A stretch of 64,000 nucleotides of DNA from Yponomeuta sedellus (Eukaryota; Arthropoda; Insecta; Lepidoptera; Yponomeutidae): the NCBI GenBank assembly GCA_934045075.1, contig OW203724.1, positions 186,001 to 250,000 on the forward strand. The letters are read 5' to 3'. A program made the position numbers and the translations under genes. How positions within the stretch are numbered: the stretch's first letter is position 1; each line of letters starts with the position of its first letter. Of this stretch, positions 6,176 through 60,057 are shown in pieces. Below the pieces are notes generated by a model that was given only the letters and a program-made list of their open reading frames with translations, was not told the DNA's origin and made no database searches.

Positions 6176-6560
6176 GTCGCGGTCCTATCGCGAAACATCA
6201 AGAATGGAGCCTTCTGGAAAATCAAATAGTCGCCGCATACTGCGCTTTAGTAACGCTGGAAGCAAAAATGACTCGTATGTCCACTAGCATAAGGTTAAAA
6301 CTCTTTGACATGCAACTGTTCTAGAGTCGTTGCCGCGTACACCGAGCGTAGGTAAGTGCGAGAAGGTTCGAGAGCCTTTGCCGGCGGATATACTCGTAAA
6401 TAGCTGCCGCCGCGGCGCGCTGTCAGTTCCGTTTGGAAGAGCGAAGAGTGAACTTCGAGTGAACATACGTGCGATACGAGCGATAACCTACGACCTCAGC
6501 GACACTATTGGACTTCGATTGGACCTGCGATTGGAATCTGTGGAACATGTGGACTTCGTG
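6175..6560 (+). mobile_element. possible gypsy LTR segment
   Basis: The segment starts TGTCGCGGTCCTATCGCG and is followed, after a LINE insertion, by sequence leading to a primer-binding-like site at 7839. A stretch near 6493-6525 (CCTACGACCTCAGCG then ACTATTGGACTTC) recurs at 7895-7927 just inside the gypsy gag. The reading as one LTR split by a LINE is an inference. Confidence 0.3.
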
Positions 6561-7755
6561 TCATGAACTTTCTCGTTGTAGGTGAAGCAGGCAAGGTTAG
6601 ATCTTCTCCATTGGACGTACTGCTGGGCGTGCCTCAAGGTTCCTCTTTTTCTAACATACTCTTCTCCATCTTAATGAATGACCTACCGGAAGCCATAATG
6701 GAGGGTCATGTACTGATGTATGCTGATGACGTTGCAGCTGTAGTGTGTTACCAGTCTATCAATCAGCTTGAAAAGAAAATAAACAGAGTAGTTGCCAATG
6801 TATCTCACTGGTTCAAAACTAATGGTTTAATACTTAACCACAATAAAACCAAATATCTACACTTCAATCTGTCAGGTAGAGCTACAGACCCCAGCATATA
6901 AGCGTTGGAGACACAGTCCTGGAGCAGGTCCCGAGCTTTTTTTTTCTGGGTTTTTATATAGACAGAGCTCCGACGTGGTAAATTAATATAGACAACCTAT
7001 GCGGTAGACTCGGTAGCGCGTGCTTTGCTCTGAGCAGGCTGAGCTGGACCTTACCTCGTGAATCGGTGGGGGTCATGTTACTTTGCAACGGTACACTCAC
7101 TGCTGCAATATGGAGTTGAGTTCTGGGGATGCGCGGCAGACTGGATGCGGGCCTTCCGAATGCAGAAGCGAGCTGTGCGAGCGATAGCACGAGTTCCAAA
7201 GGACGAATCCGCCAAACCGTACTTCGAAACCGTGCCTGCAATGGTTATTTTGCAGGCAGCTGTGTACACCCGGGAGCATATGCTAGACTACACAAGACGT
7301 AGCGACCGCCATAGGTACAACACTCGTAACATGGACCAACTGTCATCTGTGTACCACAAACTTACCAAATCAGGTAAGTTAATTCACGTTGTGGGACCGA
7401 GAGTGTACAACCGTCTGCCAGTCGATATAGTTGATTCAAAATACTTTCAGTGCTTTAAAATTAAATTAAAAAAGTGGCTTGTCAAGCAAACAATTTATAA
7501 TTTTGATGGCTGGCTTAATTAGCTGTTCTAATTATTTAATATAATTATACTTACATAAAATATATATGTATAAGAACATGTGAGTGAGCGCTATACCAAC
7601 TAATAGTCATTTCACAATTTAAACAAGTGTGTTGATTGTCAATTGTACATGTTGCGTTATAATTATTGTGTTATTTCAAATTGTAGTATTGAATCCGAAT
7701 TATTGATAAAATGACGTGTAAATTGCAATTACGAATAAAGATGTCTATGTCTGAA
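6555..7755 (+). pseudogene. 5'-truncated Jockey-like LINE (RT to 3' end)
   Basis: The first frame (6563-6898) has GVPQGSSFSNILFSILMNDLP and the RT active site MYADDVA, followed by the thumb with LNHNKTKYLHF. After a frame break of about 160 bp, the frame at 7058-7522 continues as the ORF2 C-terminus (LLQYGVEFWG, KRAVRAIARV, NTRNMDQL, GPRVYNRLP) and stops. The 3' UTR runs to AATAAAGATGTC near 7750. The 5' end with the endonuclease is absent. It appears to be inserted in gypsy sequence. Confidence 0.75.
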
Positions 7756-24364: not shown

Positions 24365-25800
24365 TGTCCTCTAAAGTTGTGAAGTGTTGCTCCTGTAACA
24401 TTGTGATCAATGAAGTGCTTGCATTTCTCTAGAATAAATGCGATTTTATGGACGAGGAAAGCCTTGTTAGGCTTTGTAGTACATCTTTTACGGAGGCGGA
24501 GCTTGAAAATGCAAAGTGTCTACTGTTTAGTAGTAGAATGACCAAAAGGCGAGGTGTAGGCAAGTCGCAAAGAAACTTGGATGACATGGTAAGGCTCATC
24601 AAGAAACTGACTCAGAGTTAATGCCGACCTTTGTTGCCCGAGACTTGCAAAAACTGCCGCCGGTCACCTTTGACCACGTCGACGTAACCCGCCTACTTAA
24701 GGTCATAATCCTGATACAGAAAGAACTTAGAGAAATTCAGTCCAAATATAAGCAACCAGCAGATGAGTTTGTAACCATCGAGCAATTTCGACAGTTACAA
24801 TCTGAAGTTCAACAACTGTCTAAAACATTAAAAGATACGCCGGATTCGACAAATTACGTAAACAGGAAAAGGGGAGGAGGTTGCATGCAAGATAGCTTTG
24901 TGCTGGACAGTGGACCTATTGGAGGGTTTCCAATTACCAATATCACACAATCCACAGAAGAAGGTACTCCTGAAAAACTCCCAACGGTCGAACAGCTGAC
25001 GAGAACCACGTCTAACGCCGATAGCCCAGCTAATTAGCGTGTCTGATGACTCAATATCTCCCACGACGCGAACTAGCGCAGGTGTCACCAGAATAAGCAA
25101 TCAGAAAATACGTGAATCAACAGCATCGTGTAGCGGCATTGTCGACAGCGGAGATCGACATTCCCCTATACTGACTGGCCGCATAGAGATCACCAGAGCG
25201 CGTGTATGGTCGAGACCAGTTTTGCCGAAGAGACCGGACCCACCGACCCATAAAAGCAGTCTTGAGGTGGAGGCCACTAAAACTGTCGGCATGCATGCAA
25301 ATGAGGCGATTATGCCCACAACGACGAACGAACCAATACAACTTGATTGCACTGGATATGACTGGACTCTCGTTGAGAGAAAAAAGTCCAAAAAGCTCAG
25401 TGCCAAGGAAGAACAGATTAGACAAAATCGTTTTACAGGAAAGGTTGGAAAAACTACTGTCTGTCCGTCTTCAAAATTCAGAGTCGCAGCCGCCACAATA
25501 CCGCTTTATTTATACAATGTAAATAAACTTACTACTTCTACGGATGTGTCTGAGTACGTCTTCGAAAAGACTGTAATTATAGTTAAGCCAGAGAAAGTGC
25601 AGATGAGAGAAGACAAAATCTTCTCTCATCTGCACTTTCTCTGGCTTATACAAAATGACTCATACAAAATGTACATTCCCCGACAAAAACTATGTCTATG
25701 TTCGATGACGTTAGCCTATGGTCAGACGGCGTTTACTTTAGGCGATACATTATCTTCTCGAAAAAGTCGCAGACAGACTATGGTTTGTAAGATAATATAA
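24365..25800 (+). pseudogene. CR1-like LINE ORF1 (broken)
   Basis: The sequence begins MSSKVVKCCSCNIVINEVLAFL with a Cys-rich N-terminus, then a stop, then MDEESLVRLCSTSFTEAELENAKCLLF. The next frame (24621-25034) holds a helical, Gln- and Leu-rich stretch (IQKELREIQSKY, FRQLQSEVQQLSKTL) that could form a coiled coil. The third frame (25039-25797) has a disordered middle, then YDWTLVERKKSKK and FRVAAATIPLYLYNVNK, as in the RNA-binding part of lepidopteran LINE ORF1 proteins. A fold-back at 25584-25648 and a frameshift near 25690 disrupt the end. ORF2 follows on the same strand about 95 bp downstream. Confidence 0.65.
25584..25648. repeat. fold-back inverted duplication, 30-bp arms
   Basis: Arms 25584-25613 and 25619-25648 are exact reverse complements with a 5-nt loop (CAAAA). 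The arms lie inside the LINE ORF1. Confidence 0.9.
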
Positions 25801-34459: not shown

Positions 34460-36200
34460 CCCATCAATCCGGAGGCCTCACTACCCTGCCGGAACGAGTT
34501 ACGTATTGATTACAGGTTGTTATATTTGGGATAGACCTGGGTACAGGCTCAGCTCTTTGCAGCTGAAGAGGTGCTGACGTCATTGTAGTTGTTACTGGTA
34601 TATAATAATCAAAATTATAATCGCCGTGTATGCTACGTGTCGGAGAATCGGGTATTAGGTATTTTCTATTTCTAACAATCTTTGTACCTAGCTGAGTGAT
34701 TACCTATCTCGTAACGTCAATCTCGTAGTTTTTGACTGATCGTTCCGGGTTGCCAATAATGTTGTACACTGTCTCTAAATTTTATTCTATGCCCGTTTGT
34801 AAGCGGAGGTAATCTTTTAGCGTCTTTGTCAAAATATTGTTTCATTTTTCCTTTGGCGGTTAATTAGTTCGTTTCGGTGGGTATCATTATTTTTAATGGC
34901 GATAAGAAATTCGTGTTTTATGGGTACTATGCTTCTGAGTCTTCTATTCTGCAATAGCTCAGCTGGTGAGGGTAATTGTTCTGACAGGGGTGTATTCAAA
35001 TATTCCAACAATGCCATTCTAAAGTCTACCTTTAAGTGATAAGCTTTTTCATAATATTCTTAACCACCTGAACTGCTCGTTCTGCTTGTCCATTGGACTG
35101 TGGGTACCTCGGCGATGACGTCACGTGTGTGAACCCCCAATCACGTGCAAACTTTGAAACTCTTTAGATATAAATTGTGGACCGCAGTCAGACATTACAA
35201 CCTCAGGGATGCCTTGTAATAATGTTTTGAGGTGATCTATTACCGATGACAACGTGCTACAGCTCGGCCGCTGGGAGAGTACGATCCTGAAACCTGTCTG
35301 TTTCATATGACTAGTGAAGGGAGATAATCAACGTTAGCATTCCTTACGTTATTCTTAACTAGCTTTTGCCACCGAATCACGATTTATATACGTAAATAAA
35401 TAAACTAATAGGTCTGTTATGTTACTATTTATTGCAAAAAATAATAAAACATAAAGTTAATTAAACGTACTTAACCATATTGAACATAAAATAACTATAT
35501 GCATATCATCATCATTTCCTGTTATCACTGGAATATTTTTTTAATTTATGCCAATTTTGCAATGCGATTTCATTTACCAGGCTGCAACAAATTATTAGAA
35601 TTAAAAACAAATTAGTGTAAAATATAACGACAGGCACATTATTATTTTCGTTATTTTTGGCACTCCAAAAAAATACGGTTGACATAACCTTGTAACAGCG
35701 TAGTACGGAATTTAGGCATCAACATTAAATATTGATTTCTTCTTTATTTAACATTTACGCAAAATATTATACTGATTGTAAGTTTACGTAAGAGTATAGT
35801 TTCAATGATAATTATTTGCTAGTAGGACAAATAGAACTTAAAAATATTTTTATCGAAAATTCAACGCCACTTCAAAGTTACGTCGTCCGTTCCATCGTGA
35901 TCTGTCAGGATCGTATTCTCCTAGCGGCCGGACATTAGTAAGCATAATAACTTCTAAGAATTTGCTGAAATAGTCCGCTACTACCAAATAATTTGGATTA
36001 TTGTAGTAGAACAAGTCCATGTCAACTTTTTGCCAAGATCGTTTTGGGACGCCGTGTGGTTACAATTCTTGTTTTCTATTACATTTTCTGAATGTTAAGC
36101 ATGTTTGGCAGTTGGTATTTAAGTTTTTTAGTTTGTTATTTAATTCAGGCCAAAAAACAGTCTCTCTCGCTCTCAATTTGCATTTTTCTAGGCCTACATG
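34460..36200 (-). pseudogene. Ty3/gypsy B: integrase and Pol C-terminus
   Basis: On the minus strand, starting at 36200, the sequence reads HVGLEKCKLRARETVFWP, then NTNCQTCLTFRKCNRKQEL, the HHCC zinc-binding module of gypsy integrase. The core continues with LVVADYFSKFLEV near 35990, then after a 550-bp foreign AT-rich stretch (about 35320-35880) LQGIPEVVMSDCGPQFISKEFQ with the second catalytic Asp, then NGQAERAVQVVKNIMKKA with the catalytic Glu. RLPPLTNGHRIKFRD near 34790 is the C-terminal DNA-binding fold, and TRSGRVVRPP near 34490 is the usual Pol end. Stops and frameshifts are present. The upstream half of the same gene is at 45047-46905. Confidence 0.85.
36196..36200. other. target-site duplication, left (ACATG)
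   Basis: ACATG directly precedes the 5' LTR and is repeated at 45042-45046 right after the 3' LTR. Five bases is a normal length for BEL/Pao integrase. The site lies in the zinc-binding motif of the host gypsy integrase, whose reading frame continues if the insert is removed. Confidence 0.9.
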
Positions 36201-36369
36201 TGTTGGAATCTAAACCAACATTGAGATTTAATTTTTATTGTGGCAACACTATGTTTTTCTCTGCCTTCTTGTCTTCGACGATATTACAAGTGCACACGCA
36301 TATTTTGAGTTTTATTTTTATAAATAATTTCATACAGGAAAACAGACCCTAAAGCCAGTGATTTCTTCA
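36201..36369 (+). repeat. BEL 5' LTR (169 bp)
   Basis: It begins TGTTGGAATCTAAACC and ends GTGATTTCTTCA. I compared it base by base with 44873-45041 and saw no difference. At 169 bp it is short for a BEL LTR. Confidence 0.93.
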
Positions 36370-36387
36370 TGGTCCTTCGGCGGTCAG
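36370..36387 (+). other. BEL primer binding site
   Basis: TGGTCCTTCGGCGGTCAG starts at the base after the LTR with the expected TGG. I could not assign the matching tRNA from memory. Confidence 0.7.
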
Positions 36388-37150
36388 TCTGTGCTATTAA
36401 AATCAAGTGCGTCAATAGTGCATCGGAGTCAAGCTGCAAAAATTCATCGGGCGGTGAGGTTTACAAAAGCTTATAGCTGATCAAGGTTGCGACGCCATTA
36501 CGCAGTCCAACCAACATCGCAGCGCCGGCGTCGGTCAAGCTGCCAACATCAGCCCGCAAACTACGTGCTAAAAGACATTTGATGTCTCCTTCACACGTCA
36601 AAAACATCTCTCTCAACTTTGCCTTGCTTCTTCCTAACTTGATCGGATCTTGTTCGGTGTGCAATTTTTTATCTGCAAGTGTGACGCTTATCACAGGCCG
36701 TAAATGTTCTGTGGCGCTTACTCATAAGTGGAACTTGGTCGAATTATTCTGTGAGTGGAACGCGCTTTCGTTCGACGGTTAAGTTGGCAACGGATGATAT
36801 CGCACCGCACTTCATCGGATCATACGCATCGGACTTGCTCTATGGTACTTTTTAACAACGCAAACTTGCTTCACTAACTTATCTTTCTGCGAATGCGGCC
36901 ATTTTGGTGTTTGCTTACATTTCGAAAAAATTCGTTGTTTCGTTTTATTTTTTAAGTTTATGCTGTATAACCCAGTGTTGTTTTCTTACTCATTGTAACG
37001 AACGAAGCATTTTAGCAATAAGATATTGCTAAACAACGGCATTACTCGTAAGTACTACATGACTAAATGTAAGCTGGACTAGAGCACGTGAGGCATTTAT
37101 AGTTTCGTCGCAAATTTGTAAATTTAAGTGTTATTTTATTACCATTAGCT
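36388..37150 (+). other. BEL 5' leader
   Basis: A 763-bp untranslated leader between the primer binding site and the Gag-Pol start. Short frames exist on both strands but none has family features. Confidence 0.7.
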
Positions 37151-40100
37151 ATGCAGAACGAAGAAGAAAACATGAAAGGCGATTTGAGCGACAAAAAGAT
37201 GATCGCGCGACGCGGCGCGCTAAAAGGGATGTTGACCCGAATAAAAGGCAAAATAGGCTTGGGGCTCGAGAACGAGTCAATCCATATGCTAAAGCTACTC
37301 GAGGAAAAGGCAATCAGTTCTTTTGGTGAGTACGAGAATCTGACATTAGAGATAGGTGATGGTGAAGATCCGGGTGCCACGGAGTCGTGTTTCTATGAGT
37401 GCGTGGCCGCCATACGAACCCAGATCAGTCTGAAATCAGATACAACGAAGGCCGAACCGATTTCTAATGCGAACTCTCTTTCAGTGTCTAGATTAAAGTT
37501 GCCAGATATTCAATTAAAACCTTTTGATGGCAAATATACGGAATACAAACCGTTTATTGAAATGTTCAATGCGTTAATACACAACGACAAGGGAATTGAC
37601 GACATTCAAAAGTTCTTTTACTTGAGGAGCTTTCTCAAAGGTGAAGCCTATGATTTAATAAAAAATCTCCCAGTGATAGGGTCAAGCTACGACGAAGCGT
37701 TGCAAATTTTAAATAAGCGTTATGACAATAAGCACAAAATAGTCCATGAGCATATCTCTGGCCTATTCGACTTGCCATGTATGAATAAATCTAACGCTAC
37801 AGCACTTCGCTCCTTGATTTCTATCACCAAACAGCACTTAGCTGCGTTGAAGAACTTAGGAGAACCAATAGATAATTGGGACAGCATACTAGTTTGCCTG
37901 CTTGTTAGGAAGCTAGATCCTGTGACAGGTAGGGCATATCACTTAGAACGTGACAATTCTGTCCAACCAACTTTTAATGAATTTATTAAATTCCTAGAAG
38001 ACCGGGCTCTCGCTTTGGAGAGTAGTGAGAGCAAAGAGGTCTCCGGCTATGCTGTCAGCAAACCAGCAGCTGCGTCCAAGGTGGCGAACGTTGTGGTAAA
38101 GGAGCTGAAATGTCTCTTCTGCAGTAAGTCCGATCATAAATTATTTGCATGCCCCAAGTTCGTGCTGGCCTCCATCAAGGAGCGCCTAGCCTTTGTCAAA
38201 GACAAAGACTTGTGCAACACATGCCTAAATTCTCATCGAGGTCGATGCAAGTTTCACTTTAAGTGTCAACATTGCAAACAAGGACACAATACTCTTTTGC
38301 ATGTAGAATGTGATCAAGACACATCAAATGAGGCGAAACATAACAAAAAATCTTCAAATGTGTCATTAAACAATGTCAATGTAAAAAATCAAGTGTTATT
38401 ACCAACTGCAAAAGTAAAACTCACTACCAAAAATGGTAAAGAGATTATAGTCAAAGCACTTTTGGACTCTGGCAGCCAGACATCTTTAATTACTGAAAAA
38501 GTGGCCAAAGAAGTAGGTAGAAAGTTAACACCCAATTCAACTGATATTTTAGGCATTGCAAATACAGAAAAATCTGTCAAATTTTCAACTCAATTGGACA
38601 TATTTTCATGTGCTTACCCATATAAAGTAAACGCAAATCTCCTGGTAGTAGATCACATTACTACAAATTTGCCACAAACTGCCATTGATATGTCCAGTAT
38701 TCAAATACCCAAAAACATTAAACTAGCCGATGACACATTTCACTCCACAAGCGAGATAGGTATTTTACTAGCTGCTGATATCTTTTTCCAGGCGCTGCTT
38801 CCCCAGCCTGAGCTCCAACACCGTGATGCTGCACAACCAAGCCTGGTCCACACCCAGTTTGGTTACATACTAGGAGGTAGCGTCCCAAGCTCACTTCAAA
38901 AGGATTCTGCTGTTGCTCTTTTCTGTCAAGAATGTCAGACAGACATTAAACAAACGATTAGTAACTTTTGGCAAACAGAAAAGGTCCCAGAAATATATGC
39001 GGAACACACGTCTGAGCAGCAATATTGTGAAAAGTTTTTTGCGGATACCGTAGAACTGAATGAAGACAAATTCACGGTTTCCTTGCCTTTAAAAATACCT
39101 ATCTATGACGTGAATAATACGTTAGGAGATTCATTCGGTCTAGCATTAAAAAGATTTATTAATCTCGAAAAAAGGTTGCAGAAAGATCATCAATTATATG
39201 ATGACTATAAAGATTTTATTCACGAATATGTCGAATTGGGCCATGGCTCTTACAAGGACATTTCCTCATATGATCTTTCTACAGATCCAGTATACTTTTT
39301 GCCTCATCATGCTGTTATCAGGCAAGATGCAATTACAACAAAATTGAGAACAGTATTTGATGGCTCAATGAGAACAAGCAACAAAATATCATTAAATGAT
39401 TTAATGTACAATGGGCCAATAGTTCAACAGGAGCTGTTCGATATTTTGCTGTCCTTTAGGCTGCACAAATATTTTTTTGCTTGCGACATCAGACGTATGT
39501 TTCGAAATATATTTATTCAAAAAGAACAACGCTCATTACAAAACATACTCTGGCGAGACAGTATGGACGAGCCGATACAATGTATCCAATTAAATACAGT
39601 CACCTATGGCTTAAAAAGTTCGTCGTATTTAGCTACACGATGCCTTATGGAGCTAGCTACAAGATATGAAAATGAATATCCTCTAGCAAGGTCTGTGTTG
39701 TTAGACTCTACATATATAGACGATGCTCTCCATACAGACAGTAACTTAGCGAACATAATTGACACAAAAAATCAATTAATTGAATTACTTAAGAAAGGTA
39801 GTTTTCAACTACATAAATGGTCTGCCAATCACGAGTCAATCTTGGCCGACATCCCTGAGCAGCAGCAGAATTTTGGAGAAGTGGAGCTAAAAAAGGATAT
39901 CAAAACATTAGGTATAAAATTTGATATCGACTCAGATTCATTCAAACTCTCATGTCCTGTTTCCGAACAAGTTCCCAAAACTAAGAGACAAATTTTAAGC
40001 TTCATTAGCCAATTCTATGACCCATTGGGCATTGCTGGACCGATCTTTGTTCAGGCCAAGACCATTATGCAAAAATTGTGGCAATCAAATGTTGATTGGG

Positions 40101-42289
40101 ATTCTGTTCCCACACCTATTATACAAAAAGAATGGCTCCAATTCTATACGGAGTTACAAGAAATGAAGCCAATAACAATAAAGAGAAATGTTTCTGTAGA
40201 GAATTGTCAATCAGCTCAAATTGTTGGATTTGGAGATGCGTCAATTTTGGCCTACGGCGCGGCCATATATCTAAGAGTCACTGATAAGCAAGGAAATGTA
40301 AAAATGTCACTTCTGTGTTCTAAGTCAAGGATAGCGCCCAAAGACAATAAATTGTCGGTTCCTAGACTGGAATTAAATGCTGGTTTACTTTTGGCAAAAT
40401 TAAGCATGAGAGTGTACAATACTTTAATAAAAAAGTTGCCAATACAAAGCGTACATCTTTTCAGTGATTCTCAAGTGGTATTGGCCTGGCAAAGAACGAA
40501 TCCAGCAAAGCTTAATACCTATGTTGCAAATAGGGTCAAATTAATAAATGAATATACAAAGTCATTTCAATGGTCTTACATAAAAACAGATCAAAACCCA
40601 GCTGATTGTTTAAGTAGAGGGCTTAACCCAAGTGACCTACAGGGTAACCAACTGTGGTGGTGTGGACCTCCACGCCTCTCAGATCCCGATTATGATTTTA
40701 ACGATACTTCAGTTGAAGTACCCAATGACTTACCTGAAATTAAGGGTCCCAAGCACGGCGAGATGGTGTGTGCAGCATCACAAAGCAAACCGGTATCATT
40801 TTGTAGCGATTTATTACAAAAATACTCTAACATAAATAAAGCGACAAATGTGCTTGCTTATATAATAAGATTTTGTAAGAATGCAAGGCCAGGTTCTAGC
40901 AAGATTAAACACAATTTTGTCACTTACACAGAGTCTAACCAGGCATTGCAATTGTTCATTAAAGATGAACAATCAAAATTCTTTGAAAGGGATCTGGCTT
41001 CCTTACAGGCAGGTAGAAAGATATCGCCTTATTTACAGTCAAAAAATCCTTTTGTAGATGCAAATGGCATATTAAGAGTAGGCGGCAGGTTGCAGCACTC
41101 TTCTTTACCCTATAGCCAGAAACATCAGATAATTTTACCTAAGGACTCAAAATTGACTAACTTAATTATTGAAAATGAACATTTAAAATTATTACATGCT
41201 GGTCAAAAAGAAGTGTTGAGTAGCCTTCATCAACGCTATTGGATAGCTAATGGTCTACGAACTGTTAAGAGGTTTGTGAATAAGTGCCTCACGTGTTTTA
41301 GATTAAAAGGTATTACAGCGAAACAGCTGATGGGGTCGCTACCCGCTGATAGGGTCAATGCTGATCGCCCTTTTCAAAAGGTTGGAGTGGACTTCGCTGG
41401 ACCAATTATGATCAAGCAATCAAGAGTAAGAAGTGTCCTCACAACAAAGGGATACATCGCTGTATATGTGTGTTTTGTCACCAAGGCAATACACTTGGAA
41501 TTGGTGTCAGATTTGACAACCGACACTTTCTTAGCTAGTTTCAAACGCTTCATTGCAAGACGTAATGTTCCAACGGAAGTCTACTGCGACAACGCAGCTA
41601 CCTTTAAGGCTGCAAGCAGCCAGTTGTCTGAGCTCTATAAGCTAAATAATTCTAAACTTCATAAAGTACAAGTACAACATGTAACTTCAAAATTAGGAAT
41701 AACCTTTCATTTTATTCCTAGCTATTCTCCAGTATTTGGTGGACTATGGGAATCGGCTGTAAAAAGTGTTAAATATCACTTGAAAAGAGTGCTAGGCTCA
41801 CATATATTAACATATGAAGAATTGTACACTGTCTTAGTGCAAATAGAAAGTATCTTAAACTCAAGACCGATAACCCCATTGTCATCAGATATAGAAGACC
41901 TTTCCTTTCTAACACCTGGTCACTTCTTGACTGGCGCGCCCCTGACTTGCTATCCTGAGCAGGATATCACTAATTTACCTGATAACAGACTTAAATTTTG
42001 GCGCAAATGTATTGCATTAAAACAACATTTCTGGAGATATTGGTCAAAACAATATTTGAATGTATTACAAAATCGTCCTAAATGGAAGGACACTTTGCCG
42101 AATGTACAAGAAGGAGCTCTTGTCATCTTACGTGAAATGGATACTCCACCAATGACCTGGCCAATGGCTAGAGTGACAAAAACCTTTCCTGGACATGACG
42201 GTAAAGTTAGAGCATTAGAAGTAAAAAAGGCTAACGGTAAAGTGCATAAAACTTCTATTACTAAAGTATGTTTACTACCTATAGACTAA
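37151..42289 (+). CDS. BEL/Pao Gag-Pol polyprotein (1712 aa, intact)
   Basis: A single uninterrupted frame. Residues about 110-300 form the gag-like domain (LPDIQLKPFDGKYTEYKPF, then FYLRSFLKGEAYDLI). A CX2CX4HX4C zinc knuckle lies at 321-334, followed by a second Cys/His cluster ending CKQGHNTLLH. The aspartic protease has LLDSGSQTSLI at about 437-447. RT has its first Asp at about 779 (ACDIRRMF) and the active site YIDD at 855-858. RNase H has GDAS with Asp 1029 and SDSQ with Asp 1106. Integrase has an HHCC module at about 1345-1395, then Asp 1414, Asp 1480 and Glu 1534 for the DDE triad. NSRPITPLSSD and TPGHFLTGAPL follow, the usual BEL C-terminal motifs. The ATG at 37151 is the first in frame. 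Length and domain order are typical, and every expected catalytic residue is present. Confidence 0.95.
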   Translation: MQNEEENMKGDLSDKKMIARRGALKGMLTRIKGKIGLGLENESIHMLKLLEEKAISSFGEYENLTLEIGDGEDPGATESCFYECVAAIRTQISLKSDTTKAEPISNANSLSVSRLKLPDIQLKPFDGKYTEYKPFIEMFNALIHNDKGIDDIQKFFYLRSFLKGEAYDLIKNLPVIGSSYDEALQILNKRYDNKHKIVHEHISGLFDLPCMNKSNATALRSLISITKQHLAALKNLGEPIDNWDSILVCLLVRKLDPVTGRAYHLERDNSVQPTFNEFIKFLEDRALALESSESKEVSGYAVSKPAAASKVANVVVKELKCLFCSKSDHKLFACPKFVLASIKERLAFVKDKDLCNTCLNSHRGRCKFHFKCQHCKQGHNTLLHVECDQDTSNEAKHNKKSSNVSLNNVNVKNQVLLPTAKVKLTTKNGKEIIVKALLDSGSQTSLITEKVAKEVGRKLTPNSTDILGIANTEKSVKFSTQLDIFSCAYPYKVNANLLVVDHITTNLPQTAIDMSSIQIPKNIKLADDTFHSTSEIGILLAADIFFQALLPQPELQHRDAAQPSLVHTQFGYILGGSVPSSLQKDSAVALFCQECQTDIKQTISNFWQTEKVPEIYAEHTSEQQYCEKFFADTVELNEDKFTVSLPLKIPIYDVNNTLGDSFGLALKRFINLEKRLQKDHQLYDDYKDFIHEYVELGHGSYKDISSYDLSTDPVYFLPHHAVIRQDAITTKLRTVFDGSMRTSNKISLNDLMYNGPIVQQELFDILLSFRLHKYFFACDIRRMFRNIFIQKEQRSLQNILWRDSMDEPIQCIQLNTVTYGLKSSSYLATRCLMELATRYENEYPLARSVLLDSTYIDDALHTDSNLANIIDTKNQLIELLKKGSFQLHKWSANHESILADIPEQQQNFGEVELKKDIKTLGIKFDIDSDSFKLSCPVSEQVPKTKRQILSFISQFYDPLGIAGPIFVQAKTIMQKLWQSNVDWDSVPTPIIQKEWLQFYTELQEMKPITIKRNVSVENCQSAQIVGFGDASILAYGAAIYLRVTDKQGNVKMSLLCSKSRIAPKDNKLSVPRLELNAGLLLAKLSMRVYNTLIKKLPIQSVHLFSDSQVVLAWQRTNPAKLNTYVANRVKLINEYTKSFQWSYIKTDQNPADCLSRGLNPSDLQGNQLWWCGPPRLSDPDYDFNDTSVEVPNDLPEIKGPKHGEMVCAASQSKPVSFCSDLLQKYSNINKATNVLAYIIRFCKNARPGSSKIKHNFVTYTESNQALQLFIKDEQSKFFERDLASLQAGRKISPYLQSKNPFVDANGILRVGGRLQHSSLPYSQKHQIILPKDSKLTNLIIENEHLKLLHAGQKEVLSSLHQRYWIANGLRTVKRFVNKCLTCFRLKGITAKQLMGSLPADRVNADRPFQKVGVDFAGPIMIKQSRVRSVLTTKGYIAVYVCFVTKAIHLELVSDLTTDTFLASFKRFIARRNVPTEVYCDNAATFKAASSQLSELYKLNNSKLHKVQVQHVTSKLGITFHFIPSYSPVFGGLWESAVKSVKYHLKRVLGSHILTYEELYTVLVQIESILNSRPITPLSSDIEDLSFLTPGHFLTGAPLTCYPEQDITNLPDNRLKFWRKCIALKQHFWRYWSKQYLNVLQNRPKWKDTLPNVQEGALVILREMDTPPMTWPMARVTKTFPGHDGKVRALEVKKANGKVHKTSITKVCLLPID

Positions 42290-42576
42290 GAATAACTTAA
42301 CTAATGTTAACATAAAATAATAAAATGTATACTATACTTACCTTTAATGTGACACCTCAATACTTACCTGTCATACTTACAAATAATTTGTATAAGTTAA
42401 TTTGAAGATAGGTAAACACTAGAATATAACTCGCAATGTAAAAAACTCATACAGTTTATTATGTGTATTAGTAGGTATATTACAAATTGTGTCATATTAG
42501 AACGTAACACAATTACTTATTTAAGGATTAATGATGATCTCTAGCACGAAGTGCATTTATGTTATTTTTTTTTACT

Positions 42577-42578
<2 letters not shown>
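42290..42578 (+). other. BEL 3' non-coding region before the viral insert
   Basis: AT-rich, with no ORF. The remaining BEL 3' region is at 44641-44872 on the other side of the insert. The junctions are approximate. Confidence 0.6.

Positions 42579-42667
<89 letters not shown>
42579..42667 (-). other. 89-nt poly(A) tract (poly-T on the plus strand)
   Basis: An uninterrupted run of T from 42579 to 42667. On the minus strand it directly follows the 3' UTR of the viral-like gene, as the poly(A) tail of a reverse-transcribed mRNA. A few more T-rich bases (TTTTTTTTTACTTC) lie beyond it. Such a long pure run decays fast, which suggests a young insertion. Confidence 0.85.
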
Positions 42668-42672
<5 letters not shown>

Positions 42673-42732
42673 AATCAGGGAAAAGGAAAATGCATATATA
42701 GGAACAAAAAATATTGTACAAGAGGAACATTT

Positions 42733-44640
42733 TTAACTAATGATAGATGATGCATCGAGCAATCTCCTCCTCTTTGCTCCACTGCTAGAGCTGTTCTCCG
42801 TCTCTTCAATTTTGCGCTTCAATAGATAATTTCTGAAGGTTGTGCTAGTATCTTCCTCAGTTCCTATGTTTAAGTGTCTCTGGAGAGTTTTCAACATTTG
42901 TAGTTTCTGATCATTGCTCTTTTTAACCAGAAAATGATTTGTTTGAAATATGGTAGTAGCTGTATAATTCTCTGGCAATTTATCTGAATTCTTGCTTAAC
43001 CATTCTATTGACTTGGTTTCTACTCCTTTGATTAGAGAAGGAATTTTCTTTATGGTAAATTGAGGGAGTATTGAGCAATAAGACTCTTCATCTCTTGTGA
43101 CCTCTTTTCCTGCAGACAATATAACTTCAGATTCACAAGTCAAGTTCTTCCCTGCATCCAGTGAGATTAGTCCTGATGCTAAATCAAGTTTTAATATGTA
43201 CTTGCTGTATCTTATCTCTTTGGTGTCACGCACCACGAGCCCAGCCATGTTTCCTCGACAAAAGTTATAGAAAACTGCAATGAATAAATTGTCCCTGCTA
43301 CCCATCATCACTTTTTCAGTGATAATCTTTTTTAGAAAATTTGAATATCTATCTTGTAAGGAAATGGGAACGTACTTTGATAGTATTTGAGGAAACAAAG
43401 GGAAAAAATTCCCGGTCTTCACATTTAATTTTATTTTCCCAATTACTGTTATATTGTATTGGATTGCTTTTATCAATAATCTTTTCGGGCTCAACAAATA
43501 ATATAATGATGGATCTGATATTTTTATCTGATCACTGAGTTCATTGAAATTTGTGCACACGGGAGCGACGCACAATGTTTGATTGTTCACCCTGCTCTTT
43601 ATCTCATTTTCATGGACATAACCGCTTTCTGGGTCACCATACTCGATATCAATGTTCTCTGAAAACCTTAATGCACCTATCTCTGAATCCTCATTTGTTT
43701 GAGACCCAATTTCTCTTCTTATTACTGACGCTCTTTCTTCTCTTACTCCCAGCAATTCATAAAATCTTTTTTGGAAATATCTTTTGCAGTTGTATCTGAT
43801 TTGTTTTACTGATAACCCCCGAGTGCTCTCAAAGTTTTTTGTTAAAAACACAGCAATATTTGATATTATGTAGATCAACTCTTTCATTGTGGTCCTGTTG
43901 ATACTAATTGTTAGCAATGCATCTGCATTGTGGAGGAAAAACCCCTTTGAAATGGAACTCTCAAAATATACAAGTTCCTCTCCATTTACCCTCTTAAACT
44001 CCACACCATCAACATTTTGGTGAATTGACTCATAGAGTTTGGTTGCTTTGGGATAAAATTTAATTCCGTCCCGTTCAATTACTGGATTGATTTTCATTCC
44101 AATTACTCCTTTTACGAACTTAGTATACTTGTTCTCATCGGTATACTCAAGGACTTTGACAAAGGGATAATCATTAATTTTAATGACTCTCACATAATCC
44201 CTGATCTTGTGATAATTCAAATTATTGGCTTGGCAATGTTTTATTAGATTGAGGCAGACTGAGGTAATTTCTAGATTCTGGCCTTTTACCTCAGATAGTT
44301 CTGTCATTAAATTTTCAACCCTGTATTGTGGCTGTAGTAGTGCATGTGATACATATATAAATTTAGGATCAAGACCCGGTAAGACTGGTAAATACCTATG
44401 CCTTTGATCTATTTGACTTTGAATATAATTAAGCATGCTAGGGATTTTCCTCACATCAAGATTACTTTCCGCCACAACTTTCTTTATCTGATTCAGATAA
44501 TAATCAGGGATCTCCTCATATTCAATTATGTTGCTCAATCCCAATGCATGCAAAATGCTTGGCTTTACCAATTCTTTGGGAATGTCGATGTTATTTGGGT
44601 TTACAGGAACCAATACTGAAGAATAGTAGTCAAGCCTTAA
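42733..44640 (-). pseudogene. endogenous orthomyxovirus-like PB2 (5'-truncated, frame open)
   Basis: The frame is open from a stop at 44641-44643 to the TAA at 42733, about 635 codons, with no ATG near its start, so the N-terminal part is missing. Counting from 44613, residues 71-80 read RHRYLPVLPG and are followed by FIYV..ALLQ, the arrangement in the N-terminal half of PB2. A middle region of mixed helix and strand sits where the cap-binding domain belongs. Residues 403-427 (FFPLFP...LQDRYSNFL) and the following glycine- and charge-rich stretch match the order of the 627-like domain. The C-terminus has a bipartite nuclear signal, KRK at 599-601 and KRRR at 614-617 with a 12-residue spacer, as PB2 has. 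PB2 is the polymerase subunit that binds host mRNA caps in the nucleus. The 3' UTR is about 65 nt without AATAAA, and a long poly(A) follows. No stop or frameshift interrupts the body. The family call is by eye; another viral polymerase or nucleoprotein remains possible. Confidence 0.7.
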
Positions 44641-44872
44641 TTAACCATTTGTTATACATAGCTCTTATTAAGTTTTTAATAAGATAGTGATAAATTCAAA
44701 AATTACCTTAAAAGATTACAGTCCACTTTCCTAGCTATCTAAAGCTATGTAACACAAGTTTAATGTAACACATCATGCTTACATTGTTTTATTTTAATCT
44801 TGTAGACAATTTGTTAGAAGATTATGCTAGTTATGTCCTTATTAATTATCTTTGTTTCCTGTGTTTGGAATA
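44641..44872 (+). other. BEL 3' region after the viral insert
   Basis: All three minus-strand frames contain stops here, so no further viral coding sequence is seen. The bases just before the LTR (TGTTTGGAATA) are only weakly purine-rich, so the polypurine tract is not obvious. Confidence 0.5.
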
Positions 44873-45041
44873 TGTTGGAATCTAAACCAACATTGAGATT
44901 TAATTTTTATTGTGGCAACACTATGTTTTTCTCTGCCTTCTTGTCTTCGACGATATTACAAGTGCACACGCATATTTTGAGTTTTATTTTTATAAATAAT
45001 TTCATACAGGAAAACAGACCCTAAAGCCAGTGATTTCTTCA
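44873..45041 (+). repeat. BEL 3' LTR (169 bp)
   Basis: The same sequence as 36201-36369 by eye, and followed by the ACATG duplication at 45042-45046. Confidence 0.93.
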
Positions 45042-45046
45042 ACATG

Positions 45047-46905
45047 TATTTTACTTAACATCTCTCTTTGTAAATTCTTAGGTACCACTATCCTGTCTCC
45101 TTTCCATATTATTCCATGTGCAAAAGTCAGGTCCTCTTTATAATTCCAAAACTTCCTAGCTTCCTCCTTAACATTTTGCCTGTGCTCTGGCCACCCTCTT
45201 CTTTTATAAGACCGTATAATCTGCAATTCCTTATCATTTTCCGTTTCTTTTTGTATTATCTGATAGTGTGTGTCTTTTAATGGGTTGGTAATCGCCACTT
45301 CACGTACAGCCTGCATTTCTTCTAAGTGCAATTCTTCGTTGTCGTCCCTATTACTTATGTTAGAAGTTTCATACGCTCGCAACAGGGCGTCTGCAATGTA
45401 TAGCTCTTTACCCGGGCTGTATATTAAGCTAAAAGTATAGGGTTGTAGTCTGAGCAACATACGCTGCAACCTAGATGGAGAGTCTACAATAGGTTTTTTT
45501 ATAATCATTACTAATAGTTTATGATCAGTTTCGATTGTTATGTCCGTACGACCATCAGTATAGGTATAAAACTTCTCACATGCAAAAACTACAGCGTACA
45601 GCTCTTTTTTCAATTTGAGCGTACCACTGTTCAGTCTTTGTCAAAGACTTCGATGCTTACAGTACTACACATCATAAAAGTCCCTTCGGGAATCTATAAG
45701 TATAAGTACATTCAACATGATCTTTAACCGATACGGTTAAGGTGCAGAATTGATTGCCACAGTAGCGCTTTCTATTTCGCTCACGCTAATATTGCCAAAC
45801 TAATAGTCACCTGCAACCTGCATCGATGACGTTGAATCAACCAATAGCAACAAAGGAGTGCGGCCTGCCATAAAATGAAACTATCTGATGGGTCGATCAA
45901 CTTGCCGCACGTCCAAAATTTGGTCATCTGCGCAGGTACATCCGCGAGACTTATTTATTGTGTAGCACTGTAACATACGGGCAAACCGTCTTGCAAAAGA
46001 ACTGCACCGAGTCCACTTTTGCTGGCGTCTACTGAGATAACAATTGATTTTCCATGCTATAATATTGTAACACGGGCGGGTCGCTCTGTTAAGTATTTTT
46101 GCAATTCTTTAAATGCTTTCCTGTGAACGTCTGTCCAGTGCCATTCTACGTCTCTTTTTTATAATTCTCTCAAGTGAAATGTTTTCTCTGATAAGTCTTT
46201 TATGAAGTTTATTTATTTATTTTTTTTATTTTTTTATTTTATTTTATAAAGAAGGAAAAACAGAATTAACAACAAGCACTTAAATACAGTAAACTACTTA
46301 GCTTATTAAATTTTGTTAATTCCTAACCATTCCTCACCGCTAGATAAGAGCTTAGTATGCGATAGGAGTAGAATAGGTATATAAAATTCATGAAGACAAT
46401 CTCTTGATACTTAAAAAGATACAAACAATACAAAGCATCTATGTATACCTAGTAATTTACAAAAAAAAATACAATTTACAAGTTACCCACATACTCGTAT
46501 GTTACCAATCCCAACAGTCGTTCTACGTCCTTGGTGTTTTTTGGCTCGGGCATGTTTGTTATAGCTGTGATATGTTTGTCATCTGGGAGAAGCCCATCCT
46601 ATGTTATTCTGTGGCCTATAAAGTTCTTGCAGAGCGAATTTACATTTTTGTGTGTTCAATTTTAAGTTTATTTTTCTACACCTCTCTAATACTAATTTGA
46701 ATCTTGCATAATGTTCTTCCTTCGTTCTTCCATAAGCCAACAAGTCATCTACGTACATACAAACTCCTTCAATGTCGTCGTAATTTTCAAACATATTTCT
46801 ATGAAAAATTTCTCACGCTGATGAGATTCCATAAGGCATCCGTAAAAACTTGTATCGCCCGGCGTATTAAATGTAAAAGTAAAATCGCGTATTAAAAGTT
46901 CATAA
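45047..46905 (-). pseudogene. Ty3/gypsy B: RT, RNase H and integrase start
   Basis: On the minus strand from 46905: RDFTFTFNTPG, then after a frameshift KFLRMPYGISSAREIF, then the RT active site MYVDDLLAYG near 46745, then NLKLNTQKCKFA. A foreign piece at 46200-46515 interrupts. VEWHWTDVHRKAFKELQKYLT near 46120 is the RT-RNase H link. After a decayed section KELYAVVFACEKFYTY and ETDHKLLVMI form the RNase H core, then SPGKELYIADALLRA and, near 45050-45110, LQREMLSKIH, which leads into the integrase zinc module continued at 36200. The LTRs of this element were not identified. Confidence 0.85.
46200..46515 (-). mobile_element. insertion in gypsy B, probably a LINE 3' end
   Basis: The left side has TTTATTTATTTATTTTTTTTATTTTT-like sequence, which on the minus strand is an A-rich tail. 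The rest is AT-rich and non-coding and interrupts the gypsy RT. Confidence 0.5.
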
Positions 46906-47273: not shown

Positions 47274-47466
47274 ATAGAATAGAACAGAACAGAACAGAGC
47301 AGAGCAGAGTAGAGCAGAGCAGAGCAGAGCAGAGCAGAGCAGAGCAGAGCAGAGCAGAGCAGAGCAGAACAGAACAGAACAGAACAGAACAGAACAGAAC
47401 AGAACAGAACAGAACAGAACAGAACAGAACAGAACAGAACAAAACAGAACAGAACAGAATAGAATA
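47274..47466. repeat. AGAAC/AGAGC pentanucleotide array
   Basis: About 38 units of five bases. The first half is mostly AGAGC and the second half AGAAC, with AGAAC again at the left edge. It gives long meaningless frames on both strands. Confidence 0.95.
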
Positions 47467-47809
47467 GACACGTTTATTTGGTACCATTATATAAATTAAA
47501 CATAATCTAGATATTTAAGAACTAGGAAATGGCACCAAATAGCCCCCGTAAGCGTAGGTTAATTTGATCGTAGCGATTACTAAATCTAATCAGCCCCCAA
47601 GAAACTGGCTGTTCAGCAAACAGAATGTAATTTCTTTACCTTGAAATAGATTGAATTGAAGTATTTAGTCTATTCCGATTCTCCGATTCTTGTCCTTTTC
47701 AGTTTACTAGTCAAGAGCTCCGCTGACGCATTTGAAAAGCGGAGAATTAACAATAGGATAATAAGGTGTTATACAACCCTAACAGTCTAACAGTCCTAAG
47801 TCGTTCAGT

Positions 47810-58920: not shown

Positions 58921-60021
58921 TCACTTCAACACAATTTCGAAGGCGGCATGCAAACTGATGTTAAGGGCCTTCGGAGACTCGTGCAGCGGCAACCTGGCTA
59001 AAGACCTGACGGAGAAGAGTTGGTGCAGAATAATGGATTCCGGCTGGCCAAAGCGACTCTCCAGGGAACTCATTATCTGTGCTGGATGCGCGGCAGTCAT
59101 GAGAAGAGCAGACACAGCTTCCTTGGCGGCTCCACACAACGCAGTATCGAGCCTGGCCAAGTTTTCTTCTGGGCTGAATCTAGCTTCAGATCGCGAGTTT
59201 GTCTTCTTGAACATGAGCTAGCCAGAGATGCTACCATCGTACAAAGGAAGTTTAATACTCACATGTCCATTCTTGTTTCCAAGTTCTGCAATAACTTGAG
59301 CCAGTTTAATAAACGAGTCTTGTGTCTGTGCATTACTAATCGTTTTATTTTTGTCGTCAATATTACAAATCGCAGGTGGGCATTTATTGTAGTGTGTGCC
59401 TAATATGTTTGTAGAGTTCGTTTTGTCGTTGAACTGCTTGCACAGGTCTCCGCGCGGCGCATTTGCGCTTGTAGAGGTAACGGCGACATTTTGTGCAGTT
59501 CCCGTAGTAGGTACGTCACCAACATTTAAAGCACTGCAAGGGAATAGTTCGTTATTACCACGAATATTATTATCTTCACACTCAATCAACCACCTTTGAG
59601 TTGAGTTGCTTTTTTCTGAAGCGGCAGACTCAATAGCCGCGAGTTCCGCCTGCAGTTCCAACTCGGCTGCTTTGCGGTCATGTTCGGCTAACCTTCGCTC
59701 TCGTTCCGCACTTAAACGAGCATGCCTTGATATGGCAGCCAACTTCTGGGTCTTGATAAAGGCTCGCGATGACGTTGCAGAATGCGTGCTTGAAGGTACC
59801 GGTTTTTGCAATTGGACAGATTCTGGCAATTCAACAGGTAAAAAAGGCTCGGAAATACAATGCTCCTGTAAGAGAGCCTCATCGTGGCAAGCTTGAGCAA
59901 GCGTAATGCCTGACGACGGGGCTGGAGCGATTTCACTTACCCCTGTCTGGAATTGATTTTTCGCTACTGAGCGCGTTATGGGCATTATTTTTCCTTTACA
60001 TTTTACGTGCATTCGTTTCAT
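58921..60021 (-). pseudogene. BEL 2 gag N-terminal part
   Basis: The frame from 60021 starts MKRMHVKCKGKIMPITRSVAKNQ. It has a long Ala/Glu/Arg-rich helical stretch (AERERRLAEHDRKAAELELQAELAAIESA) likely to form a coiled coil, then a variable middle, then KLPLYDGSISG and a stop at 59218. The next frame goes on with FSPEENLARLDTALCGAAKEAVSALL and ESRFGQPESIILHQL, the BEL gag-like domain (family: FSxxxKLxRLxxxLxGxA...). One stop separates the two parts. Confidence 0.8.
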
Positions 60022-60057
60022 GGTGTCAGAACACCATGAAACGAATGCACGTAAAAT
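60000..60057. repeat. fold-back inverted duplication, 27-bp arms
   Basis: Arms 60000-60026 and 60031-60057 (TTTTACGTGCATTCGTTTCA... and complement) with a 4-nt loop. It sits exactly at the 5' end of the BEL 2 gag frame. Confidence 0.92.

Follow-up and report, generated by a model that had tools for sequence, protein, structure and literature searches.

An antisense relative of the orthomyxovirus PB2 gene carried by a young BEL/Pao retrotransposon in the lepidopteran Yponomeuta sedellus

The capture of RNA-virus genes by BEL/Pao retrotransposons is already known, and so are endogenous viral elements (EVEs) of orthomyxovirus origin. The closest described systems are the Anakin elements of mosquitoes, in which Pao has taken up the glycoprotein gene of a chuvirus (PMC7642597), and eBxnv-1, where a Bel/Pao element in Bursaphelenchus xylophilus contains a nodavirus RdRp gene (PMC5177903). 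A further system, Pxyfem of Plutella xylostella, is an LTR-mediated retrocopy with antisense small RNAs that target the source gene (PMC9674220). Orthomyxovirus EVEs have been described from Campodea (PB1), Catajapyx (PB1), ticks (PB1 and nucleoprotein, and a glycoprotein) and fireflies; the available parts of these accounts describe none of them as transposon-borne or as PB2. In general, fragments of RNA viruses often lie near retrotransposons, and their capture and spread have usually been inferred from old and broken loci.

Here we describe a window of Yponomeuta sedellus DNA (the whole stretch analysed, 64,000 nucleotides) in which a PB2 relative lies inside a BEL/Pao element. We propose, with a probability of about 0.88, that the PB2 mRNA of an insect orthomyxovirus was reverse-transcribed and captured in antisense orientation by the element, and that the chimera was copied to two unlinked loci as passenger cargo. 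Reverse transcription would have taken place in the lepidopteran germ line, and a 5'-truncated, poly(A)-tailed cDNA would have entered an active BEL/Pao element in antisense orientation, in the interval that separates pol from the 3' LTR, in a way that left the BEL frame and the LTRs unbroken; the chimeric element would then have been copied by LTR retrotransposition. The features of the locus, in window coordinates, are the following.

36196-36200, plus strand: 5' target-site duplication (TSD) ACATG, repeated at 45042-45046
36201-36369, plus strand: 5' LTR of 169 bp, TG...CA, the same as the 3' LTR at all 169 positions
36370-36387, plus strand: putative primer-binding site starting with TGG, directly after the LTR, recognised by eye
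37151-42289, plus strand: open BEL gag-pol frame of 1712 aa, with Peptidase_A17, DUF1759, Integrase_H2C2 and DUF5641
42577-44613, minus strand: inserted PB2 cDNA of 2037 bp, oriented against BEL and placed between the ACT units of ACTACT; absent from 12 of 12 other BEL copies
42579-42667, minus strand: poly(A) tail, seen as 89 T on the plus strand (a 34-T run in the copy on contig C16)
42668-42732, minus strand: 3' UTR of 65 nt, between stop and poly(A)
42733-44640, minus strand: open frame of 635 codons, in which viral PB2 starts at about residue 9 or 10
44618-44872, plus strand: BEL sequence from the insertion site to the 3' LTR, identical in empty copies L005-L007 and in L011 and L015
44873-45041, plus strand: 3' LTR of 169 bp, identical to the 5' LTR
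45042-45046, plus strand: 3' TSD ACATG, matching the 5' TSD
45047-45640, minus strand: fragment of the pol of an older retrotransposon, extending from RNase H to the integrase zinc finger (RT_RNaseH, E 8.5e-10), which continues left of 36201

The element resembles Anakin in being a BEL/Pao carrier with an RNA-virus gene inside its LTRs, spread by retrotransposition, and in belonging to a family in which cargo-bearing and cargo-free copies coexist. The two differ in that the cargo of Anakin is reported to be an envelope-like glycoprotein that yields a retrovirus-like element, and an abundant one. The window element carries a truncated polymerase subunit, antisense and with poly(A), as a passenger in 2 copies, and is very young; its cargo is not an envelope-type glycoprotein gene. 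In eBxnv-1, too, an RNA-virus polymerase gene lies within a Bel/Pao element, and its LTRs are likewise short and identical (132 nt). However, the eBxnv-1 carrier is reported to be degenerate and without gag, accompanied only by 9 insertion fragments and isolated LTRs (PMC5177903), whereas the carrier frame in the window is open, its empty sites can be placed to the exact base, and two filled insertions exist. Pxyfem, like the window insert, is a cDNA in reverse complement that is joined to sequence of an LTR element, and its host is also a lepidopteran. The cargo of Pxyfem is reported to be a host gene that lies in graveyards of elements, while that of the window is viral and sits in a whole LTR element. 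The window PB2 has in common with the Campodea, tick, Catajapyx and firefly EVEs that all are described as orthomyxovirus genes in arthropod genomes. We found no description of an orthomyxovirus gene carried by an LTR element in the open-licence literature searched. The capture by BEL/Pao of an orthomyxovirus polymerase gene that is antisense and poly(A)-tailed, in a young element with an open frame for which both empty sites and a further filled copy are present, appears to be new.

The carrier spans 36201-45041. Its TG...CA LTRs, its TSD, the Pao peptidase in a long pol frame (Pfam, E 3.9e-48) and its near full-length relatives are those expected of a BEL/Pao element, and the two identical LTRs of 169 bp with a 5-bp TSD bear out the earlier statement that the viral gene lies inside a retrotransposon. 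Pfam also matched the integrase zinc-binding domain (Integrase_H2C2) in the gag-pol frame, and returned no match at E<=1 for RVT_1 or for rve, the integrase core. RVT_1 is annotated in the pol relatives P0011 and P0013 but not in P0012; P0013 is 72% identical and, at 1704 aa, similar in length to the gag-pol of the window. Among the best 120 of 1170 pol relatives, those with species names are all lepidopteran, with Leguminivora and Cydia leading at 73%. We infer that the carrier is active. Its insertion split an older pol, judged to be of Ty3/gypsy type, whose reading resumes across the element at 36200 (both flanks read by eye); the split pieces occupy 45002-45640 and 35400-36200. Elsewhere in the window, some 39 units of AGAAC form a satellite that includes a sub-block of AGAGC (47276-47468), and Pfam matched neither of two further open frames, one of 279 codons (59218-60057) and one of 266 (25000-25800).

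The antisense frame runs from stop to stop over 635 codons, a length with a chance probability of about 6e-23 at this base composition; the remaining five frames contain 33 to 61 stops each. The preliminary description had noted some 635 uninterrupted codons on the minus strand, a C-terminal KRK-12 residues-KRRR pattern, and RHRYLPV followed by DRYSNFL, and every one of these was confirmed, the last two motifs in that order. The C-terminal pattern is that of a putative bipartite nuclear signal, which is a feature of the PB2 family, and a similar tail is retained in the relative P0002. Comparison with empty BEL copies shows that codons 1 to 7-9 derive from BEL, read in the antisense direction, and that viral sequence begins only at about 44613-44617. 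In tblastn searches with four relatives that span the junction, all alignments start at window base 44622, which is residue 163 of P0001. About 165 N-terminal residues are absent in comparison with that protein, and the N-terminal PB1-binding region is missing from the window PB2. The first ATG of the frame does not occur before residue 69. The PB2 gene is 5'-truncated, hence incomplete. The gene had been called undamaged, which is right for the unbroken frame and wrong for the 5' end; the open state of the frame reflects youth.

Identification of the frame depended on its relatives. A phmmer search of 5.8 billion proteins and a subsequent alignment-based search (7997 candidates scored in each) returned five and nine relatives, together 10 distinct proteins (P0001-P0010), none of which bears a virus name. 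The longest, P0001, has 753 residues and is 52% identical across 90% of the window frame. Three of the ten carry species names, all lepidopteran. Two of them, P0005 and P0009, come from Arctia plantaginis; the third, P0008, is a Danaus chrysippus protein with 73% identity over 21% of the query. These three predicted proteins contain PB2 pieces of the same lineage that are unrecognised in the protein names, and PB2 integration looks recurrent in Lepidoptera. In another relative, P0003, the PB2 piece continues into a tail that weakly matches window frames near reverse transcriptase (E 5e-5 and 2e-4), and this relative may lie in or beside a LINE-like element.

Searched on its own, the window frame gave no Flu_PB2 match in Pfam at E<=10, no PB2 match in PHROGs, and in the PDB a single unrelated match (E 1.3) and no PB2; consequently, the relatives were needed. 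P0001 alone matched 31 PDB sequences up to E 10, of which 10 were PB2 in colinear alignment (E 0.19 to 1.2) and most of the others, including the best (E 0.15), were ubiquitin enzymes; against viral contigs it gave 11 pattern matches, 0 of them confirmed. Two relatives matched the Pfam PB2 middle domain weakly and below cut-off (E 0.008 and 0.009). When the frame and four relatives were combined into a profile, all 20 of the 20 PDB sequences matched up to E 10 were PB2 (best E 2.4e-7). The best match spans profile positions 21-336, about half of which lies upstream of the window sequence, since the window part starts near residue 163 of P0001.

Structure prediction led in the same direction. 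The AlphaFold model, built from nine sequences, was poor (mean pLDDT 43.8), so that the Foldseek matches lean on local structure and sequence signal. The Foldseek matches extend over most of the chain. Against the PDB, Foldseek returned 83 matches, 46 of them with E<=0.001; the best 50 of the 83 were all chains of influenza or Thogoto polymerase entries, and the chains also named in the sequence searches were PB2. Among the matches were the mid/cap/627 fragments 5fmm (E 4e-4) and 5fmq (E 5e-4), from a model whose pLDDT is only 43.8. In the viral library there were 155 matches at E<=10, and 23 of the 23 with E<=0.001 were named PB2, with low TM-scores by query (0.17 to 0.35) that do not fix the arrangement of domains. 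The predicted protein is, on this basis, a relative of orthomyxovirus PB2. The profile search and the structure prediction that the preliminary description had proposed thus both agree with its assignment, the latter albeit from a model of low confidence. Its suggestion of a quaranjavirus-type source fared less well. The best named virus match was Coleopteran orthomyxo-related virus OKIAV200 (E 2.3e-27, 29% identity), next to which stood Hubei orthomyxo-like virus 2 (20% identity), and the first quaranja-like PB2 appeared at rank 10 of the Foldseek viral listing, which is a ranking and not a tree. The PB2 proteins of these closest named structural matches, both recorded from viruses, have 749 residues (OKIAV200, a fragment) and 787 residues (Hubei orthomyxo-like virus 2). 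Both viruses belong to the proposed clade O7 (PMC6932829).

The ends of the insert provide information on its template. The poly(A) tail begins 65 nt past the stop, and none of 12 poly(A)-signal hexamers occurs inside the 65-nt 3' UTR (TATAAA arises only when the first A's of the tail are included), a combination that fits viral mRNA and not genomic viral RNA. The tail of influenza mRNA is made by polymerase stuttering. The template of the cDNA was, by this evidence, probably a PB2 mRNA. All 12 of the 12 empty BEL copies read ACTACT at the junction; PB2 was therefore inserted between two ACT units with no loss of sequence. Its insertion left no TSD beyond 0-1 nt. A 6-nt TGTTAT match, tried as a TSD of the viral insert, was ruled out by the empty sites. 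A T9 stretch lies immediately ahead of the junction, and only short stretches of shared bases occur at the junctions.

In the whole assembly (657.5 Mb in 57 contigs) PB2 had two matches at E<=10, one in the window (contig C3) and one at C16:14969431-14971335. The latter is identical to the window frame in 634 of 635 residues and lies in the same BEL element at the same insertion point, with identical LTRs, a different TSD (ATGGT) and different flanks. PB2 is thus an endogenous viral element, present at two chromosomal loci with host flanks. The preliminary description had overlooked this central point, namely that a mobile element bears the viral piece as cargo and that there are two such loci. 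The window begins 186 kb from the end of contig C3. Of three contig starts inspected, that of C3 consists of CCTAA repeats, the insect telomere repeat, that of C16 of N, and that of C10 is without repeats. The two elements differ by four bases, one of them adjoining the poly(T), and by one length difference of 61 nt in the poly(T) and the adjacent AAT repeat. The gag-pol of the C16 copy is free of indels and has a single change, M27I. Within the PB2 frame there is one silent and one replacement difference, too few to detect selection. Outside the poly(T) the divergence amounts to 3 substitutions in about 8.7 kb. With a butterfly mutation rate of 2.9e-9 per site per generation, taken here as background, the copies would have split about 6e4 generations ago, and errors of reverse transcription would make the split younger.

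A probe of 361 bases from the 3' end of pol detected at least 14 related BEL copies in the genome, 2 filled with PB2 and 12 empty at exactly the same site. Three of the empty copies (L005-L007) equal the window copy over 801 of the 801 bp compared, one of them lacking 20 bp elsewhere. The LTR probe gave 40 scored matches among 102 candidates (20 at 100% identity), and 26 of the 40 form 13 pairs by position, no more than 13 kb apart. LTR spacing is 8672 and 8611 in the filled copies and 6533 to 6637 in eight of the other 11 pairs; spacings of 8033, 9585 and 12041 in the remaining three must mean other changes, because the junctions of those copies are empty. Two of these three (C28:13528118-13537871 and C27:15027787-15039996) have LTRs 9.6 and 12.0 kb apart against the 6.6-kb norm and thus hold other inserts. 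Capture would thus have taken place in a young, recently active BEL subfamily. Given the same chimera at two loci, independent TSDs and 12 empty relatives, a single capture followed by co-mobilisation is most likely, and the presence of the chimera at a second place in the chromosomes suggests that viral sequence is moved about the genome by the element.

The manner in which the cDNA entered the element is less certain than the history as a whole. We give an even chance to template switching inside the BEL particle, which is favoured by the missing TSD, by the position of the cDNA within the element and by earlier cases (PMC5408686 and PMC9674220). Cargo within an LTR element is a mark of such capture and is present here; the antisense orientation would need a switch during second-strand synthesis. 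A credible, if less probable, competitor is target-primed reverse transcription of LINE type into a genomic BEL copy that later transposed, the reverse transcriptase of the carrier having no part in the capture. This route would leave a poly(A) tail and a 5' truncation such as those observed, the T9 just before the junction could prime on poly(A), and insertion into DNA makes the antisense orientation unremarkable. However, the ACTACT of all 12 empty copies leaves room for no TSD beyond 0-1 nt and for no deletion. Template switching is the route we prefer.

Later steps admit other readings as well. Non-allelic gene conversion between existing BEL copies might have produced the second PB2-bearing copy, and it would be traceless where three empty copies match the filled ones at 801 of 801 bp. 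It is nevertheless improbable, given that the filled copies are near identical over the whole 8.8 kb and their TSDs differ, and that transposition is a one-step account and the usual behaviour of such elements; we infer that the second copy arose by transposition. Still harder to accept is that selection maintains the PB2 remnant as a gene for a protein, such as a dominant-negative polymerase subunit. The 635 codons of the remnant are open in both copies and one of the two changes is silent, but an ATG is missing before residue 69, the PB1-binding N terminus is gone, the changes are too few to indicate constraint, and youth alone accounts for the open frame. Finally, there is next to no prospect that the long frame is an ordinary retrotransposon frame or a chance frame and not PB2. 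The failure of the frame to match Flu_PB2 in Pfam would suit such a view, but the profile and fold searches yield PB2, and among the 14 copies of this BEL family, 12 lack the sequence.

The genome contains other orthomyxovirus pieces. The Flu_PB1 profile gave 8 matches, 7 of them over cut-off, in three regions, and matched 0 of 14 control genomes. At C36:10239495-10241852 (L022, minus strand) there is a PB1-like frame of 786 open codons (Flu_PB1 E 2.9e-74; PDB RdRp subunit E 6.6e-42). It is antisense to, and adjoins, the reverse transcriptase and integrase frames of a retrotransposon that we judge to be of Ty3/gypsy type, and it lies inside a 3.4-kb tandem duplication of 99.2% identity whose other copy has two TAA. 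This PB1 may be another case of a viral polymerase gene captured by an LTR element. Remnants of PB1 that are older and interrupted by stops occur at C14:21611250-21613843 (L024, L025 and L027) and C29:2884385-2884971 (L026 and L028). The DNA identity of about 69% between the C14 and C36 copies implies several integration times or lineages. No A or T runs of at least 10 were present in the six PB1 loci scanned. Flu_NP had 0 matches in the genome, and likewise none in the controls, so that this search was without a positive control.

As a protein the predicted PB2 remnant most likely has no effect, a working PB2 being unlikely with no ATG near the viral part and the PB1-binding end missing. A BEL transcript would contain RNA complementary to the viral PB2 mRNA and is a plausible piRNA source. 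In Plutella, antisense retrocopies in LTR-element debris are reported to give piRNAs (PMC9674220), and a natural EVE of Aedes is reported to limit its virus (PMC7522710). We raise as a speculative reading, on the doubtful side, that the chimera is a mobile antisense archive of infection, by which antiviral memory would be spread through transposition and not only through chance integration into piRNA clusters; the antisense PB1 on C36 may be a second case. If this reading were true, each new BEL insertion would be another potential piRNA source against the virus. Here the carrier and its cargo, the empty site and the daughter copy can all be read to the base and are young, which makes the capture route and any piRNA effect directly testable. 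Furthermore, the locus indicates that a distinct lineage of insect orthomyxoviruses was recently present in the lepidopteran germ line.
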